Assembly (NCBI GenBank): GCA_024654575.1
Contig: JANLHG010000020.1
Location: 1 to 55,990 of the forward strand
From: Patescibacteria group bacterium
GTDB lineage: Bacteria > Patescibacteriota > Minisyncoccia > Phycocordibacterales > PALSA-1337
Direction of reading: 5' to 3'
Length of the DNA stretch: 55,990 nucleotides
Shown here: positions 35,091 to 43,602 of the stretch, piece after piece
How positions within the stretch are numbered: position 1 is the first letter of the stretch
Layout of the letters: each line of letters starts with the position of its first letter
Made by a program: the position numbers and the translations under genes
Notes under the pieces: generated by a model
What the model saw: only the letters and a program-made list of their open reading frames with translations
Told to the model about the DNA's origin: nothing
Databases searched by the model: none

Positions 35091-37805
35091 CTATTTAATA
35101 TTCAATTTTTCTCCTCTTTTTTCAAATGCTTCTTTTCCGCCTTCAAGTTTAAGCAATTCTTCTCTGTTTTTTGTGTCCTCGATCGTTGTTTCGATAACTT
35201 CCGTCTGTCCAGATTCATTTTTCAAAATGAAAATTTTCTCTGCATCTCCATTGATTACAAAATTGGCATTGTGCGTAGCAAAAATAATTTGGCGATCTGA
35301 TTTTTTCTCTTTCAGCAAAGGCACGAGATAGTTCGCAATCAACGAGCTATCAAGATGAGCCTCTGGCTCATCAATGATTAACGGATAATTACCGAACAAG
35401 AGCAAAATCACAACTACCGCCGTACATCTTTGTCCGAAAGACGCTTGTTCAACATCTCGATCGTCATATTTAACCTGAATTATCTTGTTTGATTTTACAT
35501 CATACAAATGCTTATCCCTAATTGCTTGAAAAATTTGAAAATTCTTTTCGTCCTTGAATACCTCGTCAAGAAATTTAATGTATTGTTTGTCATTTTTTTG
35601 AGATTGCTTAACAGCCCTTTTAATATCCTCTAAATTTTTTGATGAGAATATTTCCTTACTATCCGCAATATAATCACATACATATTTTCCCTTTTCGGAA
35701 TCCTTAAAGGCTTCTTTGAACTTCTCGTAAAATTCTTTTGCTAAAGCATTCCACGCCCGATTTTCGTCAAAAGAGTACTCTAAAGAAATCTTTTTAATAT
35801 CTTTGCCCTTGTTATTCTCAAACTGCGTTTTTAGCAATTTTTGTAACGGATCGACTATTGTTTTTATTTTATTTTCATAGCCTTCTTTATCAGTTTTCAA
35901 TTTCGTAACAGTATCACTAAGAGTTGCTATAATTTTGTTTTTGCCTTCGATTTGAAAAATAATTTGTTCAATTTCTCGCTCCAAGGCAACAATTTTCTGA
36001 GGTGCTGATTTTATTTGCTCAATATTATCTTCTGAAAAATTGCCTTTATTGAGTAATTTCTTTAATTCTTCTTCCAATAGCACCAAATTATCTTGATGTA
36101 ATTTTTCTTCTTTTTTAGCTTCATCAAAATTCTTGTCTTCAAGAAATGCAATAGCTTCATTTGCCTTACTTATTGCTAATAAGAAAGATTCCTTGTACTT
36201 AATTTGATCATTATTTCCATCAAGAACTTTCGAATAAAATTCAATCGTGTCGCTCAACTGCGTTTTTAACAAATACACCTCATTAGACCATTTTTTGTGT
36301 ACCTGTAATTTTTGCGTCAATTCAGATATTGAATCTGTGAGTTTCTTGTAGTCCTTGCTCTCAATTATGTTTTTCGTGTTCTCTAATGATCTTTTTTCTT
36401 TTTCTTTTGTCTTTTGTTGTGCGTATAATTCTTGCGAACTAAAAACTGCCTCGATAATTTTATCTAGATCATTTTGATATTTTAAAATATCATCCTCAAA
36501 TTTCTGCAAAATCTTACTGGGACCATTCGCCCTGTCGTAAATTGCTTGTGTAAATTTTACCTTATCTCTTGCAAAGGTTTCTATCTCACTTTGGGCTAGA
36601 AATTCAAAAATTTCTGTTCCACCGAAAGAAAAAACTGCATTATCGTTTGGATCAAATCCAGATGGATTCAATCCTTTTTTATCTTTACCGTCGCCAAACC
36701 AAAATAACTTGGAAGAATCAGGGTTGTTTGAATGTAAGCCAAGAAAATTCAAAATAGTGCTTTTCCCAGAACCTCTTCCGCCGATGAAGCAATTAAAATA
36801 TGGGCTTAAACTATAAGAGTAATTATTCCCAGCAAAACAAAATTTATCTTCGCCAACTTTTGCGTCAGCTGGAATTTTTAGAGTGATTGAATCAATTGTG
36901 TTTATCGGTTTTTTGGGTTTCCTCTCGCCAATAAAAATTCTTGTTTCTGGTTCATAAACAATCTGCTTCAATCCCTCAAATGTTGGGTCGGCTTTAATCC
37001 ATGTAATATCTTTTTCAACCACCTCAACATTTTTAATAGTTTTAACAACTCTTTTGCCAAGCCAATTATCTAAATCATCAAAAGAGTGCGCGTCGCAACC
37101 ACCAGCGACAGGTTTCTTTTTTGCAATCTCATTATCTTCATAACGATCAGTCTTAAGATAATATTCAACATTTTGTTGTCCACCAAAGAAACCGTCGCAG
37201 ATTTTATCAATCTCATCAGTAATATTGAGTTTTCTTGGAGAGTTGTTATCTGGACGAAGTCCGGCGTTGTTTGAAGCACCAAATATTAAATAACACTCAT
37301 CATCACCAAAAATTTCTTTCAATTTTTTCTTAAGAATCTTATAGTCAATTCCCGCACTTTTACAATCTGCTTGCGTGGAAATATCTTTGCAAGAAACACA
37401 AGCACCGTTTTTACTGATATTCGTATCTAGTTTTGAAAGGAAAGATTCGATTTTATCCTTTTCGGTCTTATCACTAAAAATAATGTGTAAATTCACTTCT
37501 TCGGCATTTTTGTTTACAGAAACTTCTAAACGAAGCTCTAAATTTGAAAAAAACTTCTTTTTTGATTGAGGATATTTTATCTTAAACTTTTCTATAAATG
37601 TAAAATAATTTTCTGCGGAAAAATAATCGGTTATACCAATAACATCAACATCTGATTTTTCTATTGATTCACAAAACTTATTCCACAGATTAGTTCCTTT
37701 TGTAGATTTAAAATTATCGCTCAATTTGGTATTTGGAGTATGCACATGCAAGTCCCATTTCCTCCATTCAGAGCCGATATTCTGTTTTGTAATTTCTGTA
37801 CTCAT
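35091..37805 (-). CDS. PHP-domain + SMC/ABC-type ATPase fusion (TrlF-like)
   Basis: N-term WDLHVHTPN, GITDYFS, CDAHSFDD (PHP); GGRGSGKST Walker A; ASFGQRCTAVVVILL signature; PLIIDEPEAHLD Walker B; ATHNANFV H-loop. Confidence 0.85.
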   Translation of the reverse strand: MSTEITKQNIGSEWRKWDLHVHTPNTKLSDNFKSTKGTNLWNKFCESIEKSDVDVIGITDYFSAENYFTFIEKFKIKYPQSKKKFFSNLELRLEVSVNKNAEEVNLHIIFSDKTEKDKIESFLSKLDTNISKNGACVSCKDISTQADCKSAGIDYKILKKKLKEIFGDDECYLIFGASNNAGLRPDNNSPRKLNITDEIDKICDGFFGGQQNVEYYLKTDRYEDNEIAKKKPVAGGCDAHSFDDLDNWLGKRVVKTIKNVEVVEKDITWIKADPTFEGLKQIVYEPETRIFIGERKPKKPINTIDSITLKIPADAKVGEDKFCFAGNNYSYSLSPYFNCFIGGRGSGKSTILNFLGLHSNNPDSSKLFWFGDGKDKKGLNPSGFDPNDNAVFSFGGTEIFEFLAQSEIETFARDKVKFTQAIYDRANGPSKILQKFEDDILKYQNDLDKIIEAVFSSQELYAQQKTKEKEKRSLENTKNIIESKDYKKLTDSISELTQKLQVHKKWSNEVYLLKTQLSDTIEFYSKVLDGNNDQIKYKESFLLAISKANEAIAFLEDKNFDEAKKEEKLHQDNLVLLEEELKKLLNKGNFSEDNIEQIKSAPQKIVALEREIEQIIFQIEGKNKIIATLSDTVTKLKTDKEGYENKIKTIVDPLQKLLKTQFENNKGKDIKKISLEYSFDENRAWNALAKEFYEKFKEAFKDSEKGKYVCDYIADSKEIFSSKNLEDIKRAVKQSQKNDKQYIKFLDEVFKDEKNFQIFQAIRDKHLYDVKSNKIIQVKYDDRDVEQASFGQRCTAVVVILLLFGNYPLIIDEPEAHLDSSLIANYLVPLLKEKKSDRQIIFATHNANFVINGDAEKIFILKNESGQTEVIETTIEDTKNREELLKLEGGKEAFEKRGEKLNIK

Positions 37806-37808
37806 GTT

Positions 37809-39701
37809 TTAGTATTTCCAGAGTTTCCCGATAATTCCTTCTGTTTCAGTCTTTAAGGTTTCAATTTTTTGAGAATACTCTGAAATGAATTTTTTCTTCT
37901 CTTGTATTTCTTTAATTATTTTCTGCTGTTCTTCAATTGGCGGTAGTGGTATTTTTTGATCAAGAAATATTTTTTCATCTAAATACCGTCTATTGGTCAC
38001 TCCCGCACTGGACAATGTACAGATTTTCTTAAATTCATCAGAAAAAAGTAAATAATTGAGGTAGTTATTATCTAAACCTACATCCGTTTTAATATCGTAT
38101 GCCCAAAAGTTGCCAGTAATGATAGCCCCTTCAATTTCCTCTGGTACTATTCCAAATGCTCCATTCCTAGCGTCAATTTTAGATAACAAAAGCTGACCTT
38201 CGGAAACTGTGAATTGTTTTTTTGTCCCAATCTTTTCACCCAAAACCTCATCCCTTAAACATATTCCTTTCCCATGCATTTTTATCGTAACTCGTTTATA
38301 TTTTTTTGAATCTTTGATCTCTATTTGCGTTTTGTTTCTAACCAAAACATTTCGTAGTGAAATGCTATTAACATGCGTTCTGGTATTTTGTGAATTCTCG
38401 TATCTCCCGAAAAAGAAATCATAGTTTTTGTTTTTTGCTATGTCCGATTTTTTTATTAACCTTGTTTGAGTATTTCCTGCTTTTTTTCCTTCTGTTCGAG
38501 CAAGTAGGATTTTCTGTATTTCTGGCAAATCATTCTTTGATATAGAGTTTCTTTGTAGTCCTAAATCAAAACCATCAAATAAAACTTCGGCGAATATAAT
38601 CTCATCGCTTTTCTTTGCAATATTTTTATCTATAAATAGAATATTCGTCTTCGCGTCGGTATATGGATTAAAGACACCTTGTGGGAGAGATAACACTGCC
38701 CATAAGTAATTATTGTCAATCAACTTTTTTCTTAATGCTTTAGCTTTTGTGTCAAAAATAATACCCTCTGGCACAATAACTCCCGCTCTACCTGATAGAT
38801 TCAAATGATCTAAAATATAATCAACAAACAAAATTTCTGCTTTGCTCGATTGAATACTAAATCTTTGATGTGGAGTAATTCCACCCTTCGGTGTCATAAA
38901 TGGAGGATTAGCCATAATCACATCGTACATTTCGTCCCATTTTTCCTCGCTTGAAAGAGTGTCGTATTCAAAAATTTTTGGCTCGGCGAAGCCGTGCAGA
39001 TACATATTTACTTTTGATAATTTCACCATATCTGGCGAAATATCATAACCGACTAAGTTATTCATTAACTTTTTCTTTTCATCGGGAGTAAGTGGTCTAT
39101 CTTTTTGCTGTTTTAGGATATGTTTGTATGCTGAAATTAAAAATCCAGCCGTACCGCACGCAGGGTCTAAAATAGTATCGCCTTTCTTTGGGTCTACAAC
39201 TTCAGCAATAAAATCAATAATATGTCTTGGTGTGCGGAATTGTCCTGCATCACCTTGAGAGCCAAGAATAGAGAGCAAATATTCAAAAGCATTTCCTAAA
39301 TCTTCACTGTGGTCATAAGTAAAGCCATTAATTTCTTTCAGAAATAAAGTCAAAGTTTCAGGGCTTCGGTATGGAAGAAAAGCATCTTTGAAAATATCGC
39401 GGAATAATTGCGGTATGTGCGGATTTTGAGACATTTTAGCAACGGCTTCGCCGTAAAGTTCCAAACGCTCGTGTCCTCCGAGCTTCTGGTCAAGTAATTT
39501 TGTCCACGCATATTTTTCAAAACCTTTCGTAAAAAATCTTGCCTTTCCACCAAGCTCAATGGCTTCTTTGTCCATATCGTCCATAAACTTGTAAATCAAA
39601 GCTGTTGTGATTTGCTCAACTTGGGCTTTTGGATCTGGGACTTTACCAACAAGGATATTGCGGGCGGAGTCAATTTTTCGTTTTGTTTCTTGAGTAAGCA
39701 T
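37809..39701 (-). CDS. hsdM: Type I R-M methyltransferase HsdM fused to one C-terminal specificity TRD
   Basis: GQFRTPRHIIDFIAEV, DPACGTAGFLISAY, MANPPFMTPKGG; C-term TRD with LPPIEEQQKIIKEIQ. Confidence 0.9.
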   Translation of the reverse strand: MLTQETKRKIDSARNILVGKVPDPKAQVEQITTALIYKFMDDMDKEAIELGGKARFFTKGFEKYAWTKLLDQKLGGHERLELYGEAVAKMSQNPHIPQLFRDIFKDAFLPYRSPETLTLFLKEINGFTYDHSEDLGNAFEYLLSILGSQGDAGQFRTPRHIIDFIAEVVDPKKGDTILDPACGTAGFLISAYKHILKQQKDRPLTPDEKKKLMNNLVGYDISPDMVKLSKVNMYLHGFAEPKIFEYDTLSSEEKWDEMYDVIMANPPFMTPKGGITPHQRFSIQSSKAEILFVDYILDHLNLSGRAGVIVPEGIIFDTKAKALRKKLIDNNYLWAVLSLPQGVFNPYTDAKTNILFIDKNIAKKSDEIIFAEVLFDGFDLGLQRNSISKNDLPEIQKILLARTEGKKAGNTQTRLIKKSDIAKNKNYDFFFGRYENSQNTRTHVNSISLRNVLVRNKTQIEIKDSKKYKRVTIKMHGKGICLRDEVLGEKIGTKKQFTVSEGQLLLSKIDARNGAFGIVPEEIEGAIITGNFWAYDIKTDVGLDNNYLNYLLFSDEFKKICTLSSAGVTNRRYLDEKIFLDQKIPLPPIEEQQKIIKEIQEKKKFISEYSQKIETLKTETEGIIGKLWKY

Positions 39702-39704
39702 AAT

Positions 39705-42191
39705 TTACATATAAGTATTTACGGACACATAATCTTTGACATATTCCGGTATCACTTCGCGGAAGCCGTTTAGCTCTTTGAAATCTCCCATTGATACTTT
39801 CGGATTTGTGGCAAAGCGACCATATTCTTTTGATTCCACAATCTCACGAATTTCATTATCAGTTATGTATGCTTTCAGGAAATTTTTGATTGGATAGTAA
39901 TATTTGCTATCGGGCTTGTAGATAGATATGAACTTTTCAAATTCTTCTTCCAAAAGCTCGTCTTTGTTTTTGAATTTATCGAGGCGACCAAAAATTTTAT
40001 CTATGACTTCTCGTAGGGAAATGCGACGATCAACCTTTGCTGATTTTCGGAGTTTTTCAAGGTTATAAAATTCCTGCGGTTTATCAAAAATTTCTGTCTT
40101 TACATATTCCTCAACAGCTTGCATATCGCCCTGTTCGTATTTCTCTTTGATAAATGAATCAGCTTTGATTGTGTCCTCAAATTTCTCAAAGAGTTTTCTA
40201 TCAACTTTCATTCCCTCAACGCCTACGGCTTTTTCGTTGAAAGTTTTAAGTGGGTCAGGAGTTCCAATAATTATTTCGTCAATATCAACTCCGCCACCGC
40301 CTGTACCACCAGTACCAAGTTTGGGAATTTTTAGAACCTCGTCATAGTTAAACTTTTCCTCAAAATATTCACAGTTTGCAAAGAAATCAAAAAGTTTAAA
40401 CTTATCTTTTTCAGTATTAGTTTTGTCGCCATCATTTTCAAAGGAAAAAACATATTTTCGCGTACCGCGCCCTTTGATCTGAATAAAATCAGTTGGCGAG
40501 AAAATCGGGCGCATAAGTCCGAGATTTAATATATTTTGGCAATCATAGCCAGTAGTCATCATGCCAACAGTTACGCAAACTCTCGTTTTGCTTGATTTGT
40601 ATCCATCAAGCCATTTTGTGTGTCCATTGAGATTATCGTTTGAAAAATTGATTGTGAATTGCTGGGCATCGCTAATATTTGAAGTAACTTGAACAGCAAA
40701 ATCGGAATTGTATTTATTCGGGTAGTGTTTATCAGCTAACTGATTAAGCATTTGCGTAATCTTTGTCGCATGATTTTGACTAACGCAATAAATAATACTT
40801 TTACCTATTTCTCCGCTCACTGGATCAACAAGGGCGTTCTTGAGAAAAGTTTCGCAAAAAATCGTGTTTGTTTTATCCGAGAAAAATTTCCTTTCAAAAT
40901 CCTTTTGGTAAAAAGTTTGTTCCTCTTTTCCTTCTTCCGTATCAACGAGCAAAGAATATCCCTCATCAGACAAAAGCTGTGTCGTTATTTCTGTTCGAGC
41001 ATCCGCAACGATAGGATTTACCAAAAAGCCCTCTTTCACTCCGTCTAACAAGCTGTAACGAAAAGTAGGCTCGCTGTTTTCGCAACCAAAAGTAGTGTAA
41101 GTATCAAGAAGTTGCCTACGCTCCCAAGCTCGCGGGTCTTTCTCGCCTAGTTTTACAGGGTCAATGCCTTTGAGATAATTTTTCGGTGTAGCAGTAAGCC
41201 CAAGTTTATAACCGACAAAGTATTCAAAAACTGCTCGGCTATTCCCGCCAATTGAGCGATGTGCTTCGTCTGAAATAATAAGGTCAAAATCTGTCGGCGA
41301 GAAAAGTTTTTGGTATTTATCAGAAATGCTTTGAATCGTGGTAACGACAATTTCAGCTTTTCTCCAATCATCACGATTTTCTTTGTAAATAACTGTCGTG
41401 TAATCTTTTGAAAGCCACTTTTTGAAATTTTTCGCTGCTTGATCTTCAAGTTCTATGCGGTCTACTAAAAACAAAACTCTTTTTGCATTTCCAGTTTTAA
41501 GAAATAGTTTTATAACGGCGGCGCAGGTAAGAGTTTTACCTGTTCCAGTCGCCATTTCAAAAAGATAACGATCTTTTCCACCGCTTGCCCAAGTTTGCAG
41601 AGCTTCAATCGCTTTCAATTGATACGGACGCAAAAACTTTAGGTCGTATTCTTTTACAAGTTCTGATTTTTTGTCGTCATTCCATCGTGGGTCTTTTTGG
41701 TAAGTAGGATTTTGTGTTAATGCAATATAATCGGCGGTCAATTTTTCATCCGCAAGTTTTGCTGGGTCAGGTTTGAAAGATTCAAAATGTTTCAGAGATT
41801 CTTGTGCTGGAAAAACTGTAATTATTTGCGGATTACCTCGTTCTAAATCCCAAAAATAATGTATGTTGCCGTTTGAAAGAATTACGAAGCGAACATTCAG
41901 TGATTGAGCATATCTACGAGCTTGCTCTTTTCCGTTCAAAGGGTCTTTATCCTCTGATTTTGCTTCCAAAACTAAATATGGAAAACCTTTTTCATCTAGC
42001 AAAAGAAAATCAACAAAGCCGTCTTTTGTTTTATCAAAATCATTACCAAGTTCATCAACTGCATTTTTTGTTAGCTTTACATTGTTTTCTAAAGTAATGT
42101 TTGCCGATCCTTTTTCGTCGTCAAAAAACCTCCAGCCAGATGTTTGGAGTAAATTATTGATTTTGATTCTGGCTTTGGCTTCTTTTTGCAT
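39705..42191 (-). CDS. hsdR: Type I R-M restriction subunit HsdR
   Basis: Nuclease PYLVLEAKSEDKD; helicase ATGTGKTLT, SDEAHRS, GLTATP, TTGYDCQNI. Confidence 0.93.
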   Translation of the reverse strand: MQKEAKARIKINNLLQTSGWRFFDDEKGSANITLENNVKLTKNAVDELGNDFDKTKDGFVDFLLLDEKGFPYLVLEAKSEDKDPLNGKEQARRYAQSLNVRFVILSNGNIHYFWDLERGNPQIITVFPAQESLKHFESFKPDPAKLADEKLTADYIALTQNPTYQKDPRWNDDKKSELVKEYDLKFLRPYQLKAIEALQTWASGGKDRYLFEMATGTGKTLTCAAVIKLFLKTGNAKRVLFLVDRIELEDQAAKNFKKWLSKDYTTVIYKENRDDWRKAEIVVTTIQSISDKYQKLFSPTDFDLIISDEAHRSIGGNSRAVFEYFVGYKLGLTATPKNYLKGIDPVKLGEKDPRAWERRQLLDTYTTFGCENSEPTFRYSLLDGVKEGFLVNPIVADARTEITTQLLSDEGYSLLVDTEEGKEEQTFYQKDFERKFFSDKTNTIFCETFLKNALVDPVSGEIGKSIIYCVSQNHATKITQMLNQLADKHYPNKYNSDFAVQVTSNISDAQQFTINFSNDNLNGHTKWLDGYKSSKTRVCVTVGMMTTGYDCQNILNLGLMRPIFSPTDFIQIKGRGTRKYVFSFENDGDKTNTEKDKFKLFDFFANCEYFEEKFNYDEVLKIPKLGTGGTGGGGVDIDEIIIGTPDPLKTFNEKAVGVEGMKVDRKLFEKFEDTIKADSFIKEKYEQGDMQAVEEYVKTEIFDKPQEFYNLEKLRKSAKVDRRISLREVIDKIFGRLDKFKNKDELLEEEFEKFISIYKPDSKYYYPIKNFLKAYITDNEIREIVESKEYGRFATNPKVSMGDFKELNGFREVIPEYVKDYVSVNTYM

Positions 42192-42193
42192 AA

Positions 42194-42946
42194 TTATTTT
42201 CTGGTTATCAAATCATACGCCAAGCTAGCCAGCGAGATGTAGTGAATAGCCAAGTTTTTATCAAGATCACGCGCTGGCGTATGTGCCTTTTCATTTCTCA
42301 AAAATTGGATCGACATGTGTAAAAACTTTACACCCTCAAAAAAGTCACTTTCCACATCGTCTACAGGCTGATGCCCGAAAATCTTTTCGTAATTTGAATT
42401 ACTAAAAGCATCTGTTGCCTTTTCTTTTCCTGTTATGTCTTTTAGTTTTTTTCTAACGATTTTGTACGCTTCTTCTACTGCATTAAAATAGTGTCCGCTG
42501 TTCAGCAATTTTTGCACATGATCAAAAACCTCTTTTTGTAGAGTGATACTAATATTTCCGTTTTTGAATGTCGCTTTAGATTTACTTTCTTTTGTTTCAA
42601 TTTTTTTACCAGACAACTTTTCAGCAATTTCCCTGCTAGCGTTTATTCTGTCGGCTGGAAAATCTTCTCGCTTGAGATTATCTATCAAAATTTGACTCTC
42701 AATATATTCAATAAGTTTCAAAATTGTTTTAGCAACTGTCTTGTCGTCTGATTTCAACCACAAACCCTTCAAACGATTTGCCTTTGATCCGCTGGAGTAA
42801 TTATATTTTTGCGTATAAATATCAATGCCGACATCGTCTCTAAAAAATTCGCCCATTGTCCGGTCAGAGAAATTCAAAACATAGCCTCCTCCCATTTGGA
42901 AATTTTTCTCAAGTATTTGTTTTTCTATTGTGTTTAAATTTGCCAT
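42194..42946 (-). CDS. AbiJ-like N-terminal domain + HEPN-like (TIGR02391/Ymh-type) C-terminal domain
   Basis: GGYVLNFSDRTMGEFFRDDVGIDIYTQKYNYSSGSKANRLKGLW; C-term HMSIQFLRNEKAHTPARD with RNxxxH. Confidence 0.75.
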   Translation of the reverse strand: MANLNTIEKQILEKNFQMGGGYVLNFSDRTMGEFFRDDVGIDIYTQKYNYSSGSKANRLKGLWLKSDDKTVAKTILKLIEYIESQILIDNLKREDFPADRINASREIAEKLSGKKIETKESKSKATFKNGNISITLQKEVFDHVQKLLNSGHYFNAVEEAYKIVRKKLKDITGKEKATDAFSNSNYEKIFGHQPVDDVESDFFEGVKFLHMSIQFLRNEKAHTPARDLDKNLAIHYISLASLAYDLITRK

Positions 42947-42948
42947 GA

Positions 42949-43110
42949 TTATTTCAAAAGTTCGCTACTGGAAATTCTCAACGCATTAGAAATTTTTTCC
43001 AAAGTCGAAAGAGTAGGGTTCATACGACCATCAATATCGCCTTGTGTAATACCTTTCTCTGTTCGAATACGCTTTAGATTCTTGCCTAATTTCGTAGATT
43101 CACTTTTCAT
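42949..43110 (-). CDS. 53-aa Xre-like HTH protein with apparent internal deletion
   Basis: MKSESTKLGKNLKRIRTEKGITQGDIDGRMNPTLSTLEKISNALRISSSELLK*; below the 60-aa ORF-track cutoff. Confidence 0.7.
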   Translation of the reverse strand: MKSESTKLGKNLKRIRTEKGITQGDIDGRMNPTLSTLEKISNALRISSSELLK

Positions 43111-43157
43111 ATCCACAGTATAGCACTAACATTTACATTATACACCAATCTATTTTT

Positions 43158-43231
43158 TGGCTGCGGGACTTGGAATCGAACCAAGATTCACGGCTTCAAA
43201 GGCCGCTGTACTACCATTATACGATCCCGCA
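43158..43231 (-). tRNA. tRNA-Gln(TTG), U1-A72, G73, CCA encoded
   Basis: Reverse complement TGCGGGATCGTATAATGGTAGTACAGCGGCCTTTGAAGCCGTGAATCTTGGTTCGATTCCAAGTCCCGCAGCCA. Confidence 0.92.
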
Positions 43232-43457
43232 ATATTATTTCTTTTTCACGCCTACAATCTTTCAACTTTCTCTCATACGTTCTTGCCTCCTTTTCTGAAT
43301 TAAAATCCTCAGTATATACAAGGATGAATGGAACATAATGTTTTGTTGATCGTACCTTTCCATCATTATGTTCCTTGACCCTTTCTCTAATTCTATTAGT
43401 ACTTCCTACATAATACCACTTCTTTGCTAAACTTTTTATTATATATACTTTCCACAT
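43188..43457 (-). CDS. GIY-YIG endonuclease-domain protein; 3' end overlaps tRNA-Gln
   Basis: MWKVYIIKSLAKKWYYVGSTNRIRERVKEHNDGKVRSTKHYVPFILVYTEDFNSEKEARTYERKLK; last codons read through the tRNA 5' half. Confidence 0.85.
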   Translation of the reverse strand: MWKVYIIKSLAKKWYYVGSTNRIRERVKEHNDGKVRSTKHYVPFILVYTEDFNSEKEARTYERKLKDCRREKEIILRDRIMVVQRPLKP

Positions 43458-43461
43458 AAAT

Positions 43462-43507
43462 GCTGTACTACCATTATACCTGCCTGCGCAGGCAGGCGAT
43501 CCCGCAA
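43462..43507 (-). repeat. Partial tRNA-Gln 5' duplicate interrupted by an 18-bp palindrome
   Basis: GCTGTACTACCATTATA|CCTGCCTGCGCAGGCAGG|CGATCCCGCAA versus intact GCTGTACTACCATTATACGATCCCGCAA at 43205-43232. Confidence 0.93.
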
Positions 43508-43602
43508 AATTTTTAAAATACAATTATAAAATACTATAAAAATACTATAATATCAATACCTTAAATTCCATCACGTATGACATATGGTATTATTAAATAA
43601 TT

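Follow-up and report, generated by a model that had tools for sequence, protein, structure and literature searches.

Five closely spaced genes in the window (the whole stretch of 55,990 nucleotides analysed, part of the 181,649-base contig C18 in a genome of 0.69 Mb) raised the question of whether a restriction-modification (R-M) core, a HEPN protein and a TrlF-family protein act as one defence system, and how the parts would be coupled. A preliminary description of this DNA had read them as one composite system.

Layout of the operon

The operon was composed of five open reading frames (ORFs) on the minus strand, from 43116 to 35091, with intergenic gaps of 2, 2, 3 and 3 nt. The gene order from 5' to 3' was Xre / HEPN / HsdR / HsdM::TRD / TrlF, behind a tRNA gene:

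43158..43231, minus strand, tRNA-Gln (ttg), directly upstream, 41 nt ahead of the operon start
42949..43116, minus strand, Xre-family regulator, 53-55 aa (GTG start; ATG at 43110)
42194..42946, minus strand, AbiJ-NTD-like plus Ymh HEPN protein (TIGR02391/PF09509), 250 aa
39705..42191, minus strand, HsdR-like restriction subunit, 828 aa
37809..39701, minus strand, HsdM fused to a single type I target-recognition domain (TRD), 630 aa
35091..37805, minus strand, TrlF-family protein, PHP plus ABC ATPase, 904 aa

The coding potential of the five ORFs was unmistakable, and we infer that they are co-transcribed. A promoter scan of the operon gave scores little above those of shuffled sequence. The GC content was not distinct, and the genes downstream belonged to other families (HAD-like hydrolase, SOUL). 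The ORFs and their spacing verified the preliminary account of five minus-strand genes 2-3 nt apart just after tRNA-Gln, and its domain calls (AbiJ-like N-terminus, HEPN, HsdR, HsdM-TRD, PHP and ABC ATPase) were borne out by the comparisons below.

The Xre-family gene

The first gene had been described as a mini-Xre. The family assignment was correct, but alignment with intact Xre sequences (L045, of 68 aa and from the same order, L082 and L053) showed an ordinary Xre minus 15 residues, and not a mini form. The missing residues were lost in frame and spanned the HTH recognition helix; Pfam HTH_3 matched the C-terminal half only. Judged from this alignment, conventional DNA binding is hardly to be expected of the protein. 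Regulation of the operon is uncertain because of this damage. The 15-residue (45-nt) loss may be an assembly error in the metagenome-assembled genome (MAG).

The R-M core

HsdR matched ResIII and HSDR_N_2 and was of the EcoAI type, at 223 bits, under the curated cut-off of 550. It contained the D61...E-A-K residues of a PD-(D/E)XK nuclease and the GTGKT, DEAH and TAT motifs of an SF2 helicase, and was 66% identical to the HsdR of locus L024 and 59% identical to an E. coli IncF plasmid protein. HsdM matched N6_Mtase (PF02384, E 3.6e-56), with DPACGT and NPPF motifs, and one Methylase_S domain (E 5e-8). PADLOC (2023 version) matched both subunits to type I R-M.

No separate hsdS gene was present in the operon, and the TRD fused to HsdM was the sole specificity domain. 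Instead of the two-TRD HsdS by which type I R-M is defined, there was one Methylase_S domain, on HsdM, and the enzyme is therefore termed type I-like. Compared with L024, the catalytic core of HsdM was 71% identical and the TRD 28%. The TRD has therefore been exchanged.

The same genome contained a second, paralogous type I system (L062, 12960-18498) on contig C18 beyond the window. Its HsdR was 55% identical to that of the window, its HsdM was fused to two TRDs, and no TrlF or HEPN gene was adjacent. HsdM proteins followed by TrlF (window, L024 and the E. coli locus L105) were short (630-677 aa), with one TRD in the window and E. coli. Most HsdM relatives without TrlF (L062, L095, L097, L099, L103) were 817-857 aa long, with two TRDs in L062. 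The sample for this length pattern was small, and there were exceptions (L096, 645 aa; L100 and L101, 701 aa).

The AbiJ-NTD-like/Ymh HEPN protein

The HEPN protein scored 93.5 bits against TIGR02391/Hypoth_Ymh, above the cut-off of 39.45. Its motif R217-N218-x3-H222 (R217NEKAH222) conformed to R-x4-6-H, and R217, N218 and H222 were invariant across 14 relatives. Residues 1-120 had no Pfam match, and homologous N-termini were found on plasmid proteins annotated 'abortive infection' and 'restriction endonuclease'. AbiJ-NTD1/2 domains occur likewise on such proteins (PMC3710099).

The AlphaFold model was moderate (pLDDT 78, pTM 0.50). Its top fold match in the PDB was the HEPN protein 2hsb, with a Foldseek probability of 0.99 and a statistically weak E of 0.32. 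Sequence searches of the PDB, with profiles or proteins of HEPN and TrlF as queries, gave no match, and no model in PADLOC (2023 version) matched the HEPN protein. It is best read as a putative abortive HEPN RNase.

Nucleotide comparison of the window copy with its relatives gave dN/dS of about 0.01-0.13 where measurable; across the different R-M partners the measurable values did not exceed about 0.2. Both domains of the protein are under strong purifying selection despite the differing partners.

The TrlF protein

TrlF scored 471.6 bits against NF045780, above the cut-off of 350. A PHP domain (residues about 1-300) was followed by an ABC ATPase that a coiled coil interrupts, and the ABC motifs were complete (GGRGSGKS, SFGQR, DEPE, THN). 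The N-terminal region matched no Pfam model. A structural model of residues 1-330 (pTM 0.79) had a PHP fold, with PolC, Pol III alpha and RNase AM as the best matches (E 1.6e-6 to 5e-5).

The PHP metal-ligand set (HxH, TDH, E, H, DxH) was kept except for TDH, which was TDY. This state was common to most TrlF proteins close in sequence to the window copy. In the TrlF alignment, a Tyr at the TDH position (61 in the window protein) was nearly always accompanied by a His at position 107, and proteins with His at the TDH position had no His aligned at 107. The pattern may be a change of metal ligand or an effect of the alignment.

E. coli Ppl is reported to be a 3'-5' single-stranded DNA exonuclease that requires 3'-OH ends, nucleotide depletion and relief of NTP inhibition (PMC12904381, a review). 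The window TrlF scored 117 bits against the Ppl model NF042955, below its cut-off of 1000, and the Ppl match in PADLOC (2023) was weak (93 bits). Ppl chemistry may not carry over to this protein, given that score and the absent TDH histidine. The TrlF of the E. coli plasmids described below aligned over the entire Ppl model at 530 bits.

Genomic neighbourhoods of the HEPN gene

The four closest HEPN relatives, 78-87% identical, were all in R-M operons, of differing kinds:

L082, Xre-HEPN-type III Mod-Res
L081, HEPN-HsdM-HsdS-HsdR, type I
L064, HsdM-HEPN-HsdS-SMODS-SLATT-HsdR, type I
L063, HEPN-EcoRI methylase-GmrSD/HNH

Among more distant relatives, those of L083 and L084 belonged to type I operons, and that of L085 adjoined a type III pair. 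TIGR02391 occurred in 12 genomes of the phylum, and in 6 of them (G000, G342, G239, G297, G177, G317) a DNA methylase was at most 5 kb away. No Ymh relative was found in the phage records searched.

In L064 (261-8687), hsdM and hsdR of the type I operon enclosed, besides the Ymh HEPN gene, a CBASS-like pair (a SMODS nucleotidyltransferase and a SLATT_4 membrane effector). In L089 (contig C164 of G563), a Fic gene lay between a 58-residue remnant of a HEPN gene and an EcoRI-type methylase. This arrangement suggests that one effector was replaced by another.

Genomic neighbourhoods of TrlF

TrlF was surveyed in 380 genomes of the phylum and was present in 18. Methylases (PF02384, PF01555 or PF00145) were sought within 5 kb. 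TrlF was that close to a DNA methylase in 11 of the 18 genomes, against 0.77 expected (P about 4e-12); without the window locus the figures were 10 of 17 and 0.59 (P about 2e-11). The expectation was derived from the number of methylases per genome with uniform placement, and takes no account of the grouping of such genes in defence islands. Seven of the 18 TrlF genes were near no R-M gene, some of them at contig ends. The preliminary description had called for an association with hsd genes above chance, and both arms did adjoin R-M genes far beyond the uniform expectation.

The structure of the operons is more telling than this count: TrlF was usually the tail gene, close behind R-M genes of type I, II, III or IIG that run in the same direction. 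The neighbourhoods were:

L053, TrlF as tail gene of Xre-HsdM-HsdS-HsdR, type I
L048, TrlF as tail gene of type III Mod-Res
L055, TrlF as tail gene of an EcoO109I R-M system
L046, TrlF as tail gene of an HpaII R-M system, after one unknown gene
L045, TrlF as tail gene of a GmrSD/HNH locus whose first gene is an intact Xre
L058, TrlF within a type I locus
L030, TrlF directly behind an Eco57I-type methylase
L049, TrlF downstream of BpuJI/Mrr genes, a little further off
L024 (Moranbacteria), HsdR-HsdM-TrlF in the window order, 66/53/69% identical, with no Xre or HEPN
L051, Ymh HEPN gene directly ahead of TrlF, with no adjoining R-M genes
L022, TrlF 92% identical to that of the window, with no R-M gene within 2.8 kb on the contig

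HsdR-HsdM::TRD-TrlF was also found, in the same order, in 77 of 5,426 complete E. coli genomes. The copies were at least 99% identical, and all were on plasmids, never on the chromosome. In the example L105 (plasmid NZ_CP022732, 13182-20730), the operon was flanked by the IncF plasmid genes finO and repA.

Other plasmids carried TrlF inside a type I operon alongside an AlbA_2/RecG_C protein (pNDM-KN), inside BREX-1 (Vibrio parahaemolyticus) and adjoining a type II system (Raoultella). No R-M neighbour was present at 8 of the 12 plasmid TrlF loci looked at. Viral contigs scanned for TrlF contained none, and those scanned for HsdR contained R-M operons, all without TrlF or HEPN.

Mosaic evolution and mobility

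Identity between TrlF proteins differed by segment. Against L024, the PHP region (1-270) was 40% identical and the ABC parts 81-99%. Against L023, the PHP region was 84% identical, the coiled-coil part 47% and the C-terminal ABC part 99%. Segments of TrlF are therefore exchanged, much as TRDs are in HsdM.

Matches to the window TrlF were also found under other phyla, in L022 (binned as WOR-1, 92%) and L023 (binned as Chlorobiaceae, 71%); the MAG bins may be wrong. With that reservation, TrlF appears to cross phyla. The neighbourhoods indicate that HEPN and TrlF are two distinct modules, each spread horizontally and taken up into many kinds of R-M operon.

In the genomes and plasmids surveyed, each neighbouring pair of the window genes recurred elsewhere, and the full five-gene set was found nowhere beyond the window. 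The claim of one composite system was only partly right, as the five genes were not conserved as a unit.

Proposed mechanism

The reading we favour, and to which we give about an even chance, is a multilayer restriction operon in which R-M cleaves DNA, TrlF works on the resulting ends, and the HEPN RNase is an abortive backup. The enzyme activities, the DNA-end trigger and the switch activating HEPN are those that we infer. About 8 kb of a 0.69-Mb patescibacterial genome would be spent on this single layered defence operon.

HsdR and HsdM::TRD would constitute a type I-like enzyme, methylating the cell's own DNA and cutting DNA that enters unmodified. A single TRD implies pairing of two such HsdM::TRD units on a symmetrical site. 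TrlF, with its PHP domain and Rad50-like ABC ATPase, is by analogy with the related Ppl probably a nuclease directed to DNA ends. It would be silent until free 3'-OH ends from restriction appeared, perhaps together with a drop in nucleotides, and would then degrade the cut DNA. The AbiJ-NTD/Ymh HEPN RNase would act as the abortive backup once the earlier layers failed. HEPN families linked to R-M have been proposed in general as RNase backups (PMC3710099).

An end-activated TrlF would fit behind any R-M system, because every R-M type yields DNA ends, and the neighbourhoods above agree with this. We tentatively propose, as a possibility of lesser weight, that TrlF and the AbiJ-NTD/Ymh HEPN protein are universal R-M add-ons that answer cut DNA ends and no particular restriction protein, with layers built as genes are exchanged at the two ends of R-M operons. 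Should both proteins function with every R-M type, only a generic signal could couple them. If true, this would be a testable answer to the old question of how backup effectors sense that restriction has been engaged or beaten. The E. coli IncF operon of the same order makes the hypothesis directly testable in laboratory strains.

Several points count against the multilayer reading. Many TrlF genes were free of R-M (7 of 18 in the phylum, 8 of 12 on plasmids, and L022). The low Ppl score and absent TDH histidine of the window TrlF, the assumption of uniform placement behind the enrichment, and the damaged Xre also weigh against it. In Photorhabdus, mutations escaping growth restriction strike trlG, not trlF (PMC7554251).

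Alternative explanations

The best of the alternatives, which we consider unlikely, holds that the genes are independent defence modules under one promoter, each with its own phage trigger, and that the R-M operon is a mere insertion site with no coupling. The R-M-free occurrences (L022, the Ymh-TrlF pair of L051 and several plasmid TrlF loci) and the free swapping of partners would be expected from it, and embedded effectors in type I operons have been described as recombination hot spots (PMC12255303). However, the tight spacing, the tail position of TrlF behind all R-M types and the recurrence across phyla and plasmids exceed co-residence in an island.

In a second alternative, the HsdR/HsdM complex would hold HEPN, and perhaps TrlF, inactive in the manner of PrrC, and anti-restriction proteins of the phage would free it. 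PrrC-EcoprrI is a precedent, and such a latch was explicitly proposed for R-M-linked HEPN proteins (PMC3710099). Against it, HEPN proteins 78-87% identical were found with two kinds of type I system, with type III and with EcoRI-methylase/GmrSD. The unrelated partners leave these HEPN proteins no shared surface for a latch, and a latch on Hsd proteins would not easily survive such swapping. Furthermore, the N-terminal part of the L024 TrlF was exchanged, yet HsdR and the HsdM core were similar. We regard this alternative as improbable; a generic trigger is more likely, given that almost the same extras occur with R-M enzymes unrelated to one another.

The least probable reading is that Xre-HEPN is a toxin-antitoxin pair stabilising the operon and TrlF an end-processing repair factor shielding the host from its own restriction enzyme: Xre was immediately ahead of HEPN in the window and L082 and the ABC part of TrlF is Rad50-like, but Xre preceded HEPN in just two of the five closest loci, and its recognition helix was lost while the HEPN gene was intact and under purifying selection. 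The simple toxin-antitoxin reading was dropped, as Xre is usually absent and is broken in the window.

Comparison with known systems

The principle of a HEPN backup to R-M was published in 2013 (Anantharaman et al., PMC3710099), where the Ymh family is covered together with its fusion to AbiJ-NTD1 and its R-M operons. The window operon resembles those systems in HEPN family, operon setting and the proposed RNase backup, and probably in type of N-terminal domain. It differs in its PHP-ABC partner ('PHP' is absent from that text) and in the single TRD fused to HsdM.

PrrC-EcoprrI likewise encodes a HEPN RNase together with type I R-M. However, PrrC is a single ABC-HEPN protein latched by its own HsdMSR, whereas HEPN and ABC are separate in the window and their partners interchangeable. 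E. coli Ppl shares the PHP and SMC-like ATPase parts, and its model NF042955 aligns with TrlF. The window TrlF differs in its score (117 of 1000 bits) and in TDY for TDH; Ppl is a single-gene anti-phage system.

The Photorhabdus TRL locus TrlR-TrlF-TrlG (PMC7554251) also combines the TrlF family with a small regulator. In contrast, the window operon has an R-M core and HEPN, and no TrlG; TRL was discovered via temperature-restricted growth. On Yersinia pYR3, trlR and trlF are separated by type I M genes (PMC7554251). The RptR-Rms-DarTG2 island (PMC12255303) similarly contains a small regulator, type I R-M and an embedded toxin, but both the toxin and the regulator family differ. Its authors also saw a pair of an RNA-binding protein and an AAA-like ATPase between hsdS and hsdR.

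The E. coli IncF operon was alike in gene order, HsdR (59%), HsdM core (58%) and the single TRD. It differed in having no Xre or HEPN and a distant TrlF (25-41% over parts).

No named system with this five-gene set was found in the literature or in PADLOC 2023; the 2020 ABC-ATPase survey was outside this comparison. R-M operons with embedded effectors, HEPN backups and TrlF near type I genes are already known. What is new is that a HEPN arm and a TrlF arm are combined on a single R-M core, that both arms change partners widely, and that an E. coli operon makes the idea testable.

The tRNA-Gln flank

Insertion of the operon as an island or at an att site was considered and rejected, as no direct repeats were seen flanking the operon and the tRNA-Gln repeat was part of the neighbouring GIY-YIG gene. 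This endonuclease gene (43188-43510, minus strand) had a broken copy of the 5' half of tRNA-Gln on one side and an intact one on the other. The two copies (GTATAATGGTAGTACAGC, at 43462-43479 and 43205-43222) were the only ones in the genome. A homing-type element seems to have inserted into the tRNA-Gln gene and to have repaired it with a copy of the 5' part that it brought along.

The broken copy was interrupted by a perfect 18-bp palindrome, CCTGCCTGCGCAGGCAGG, at 43479-43496 of the window. The genome contained six exact copies of this palindrome and three with one mismatch, where shuffles of the window gave an expectation of none. It is probably a dispersed repeat.
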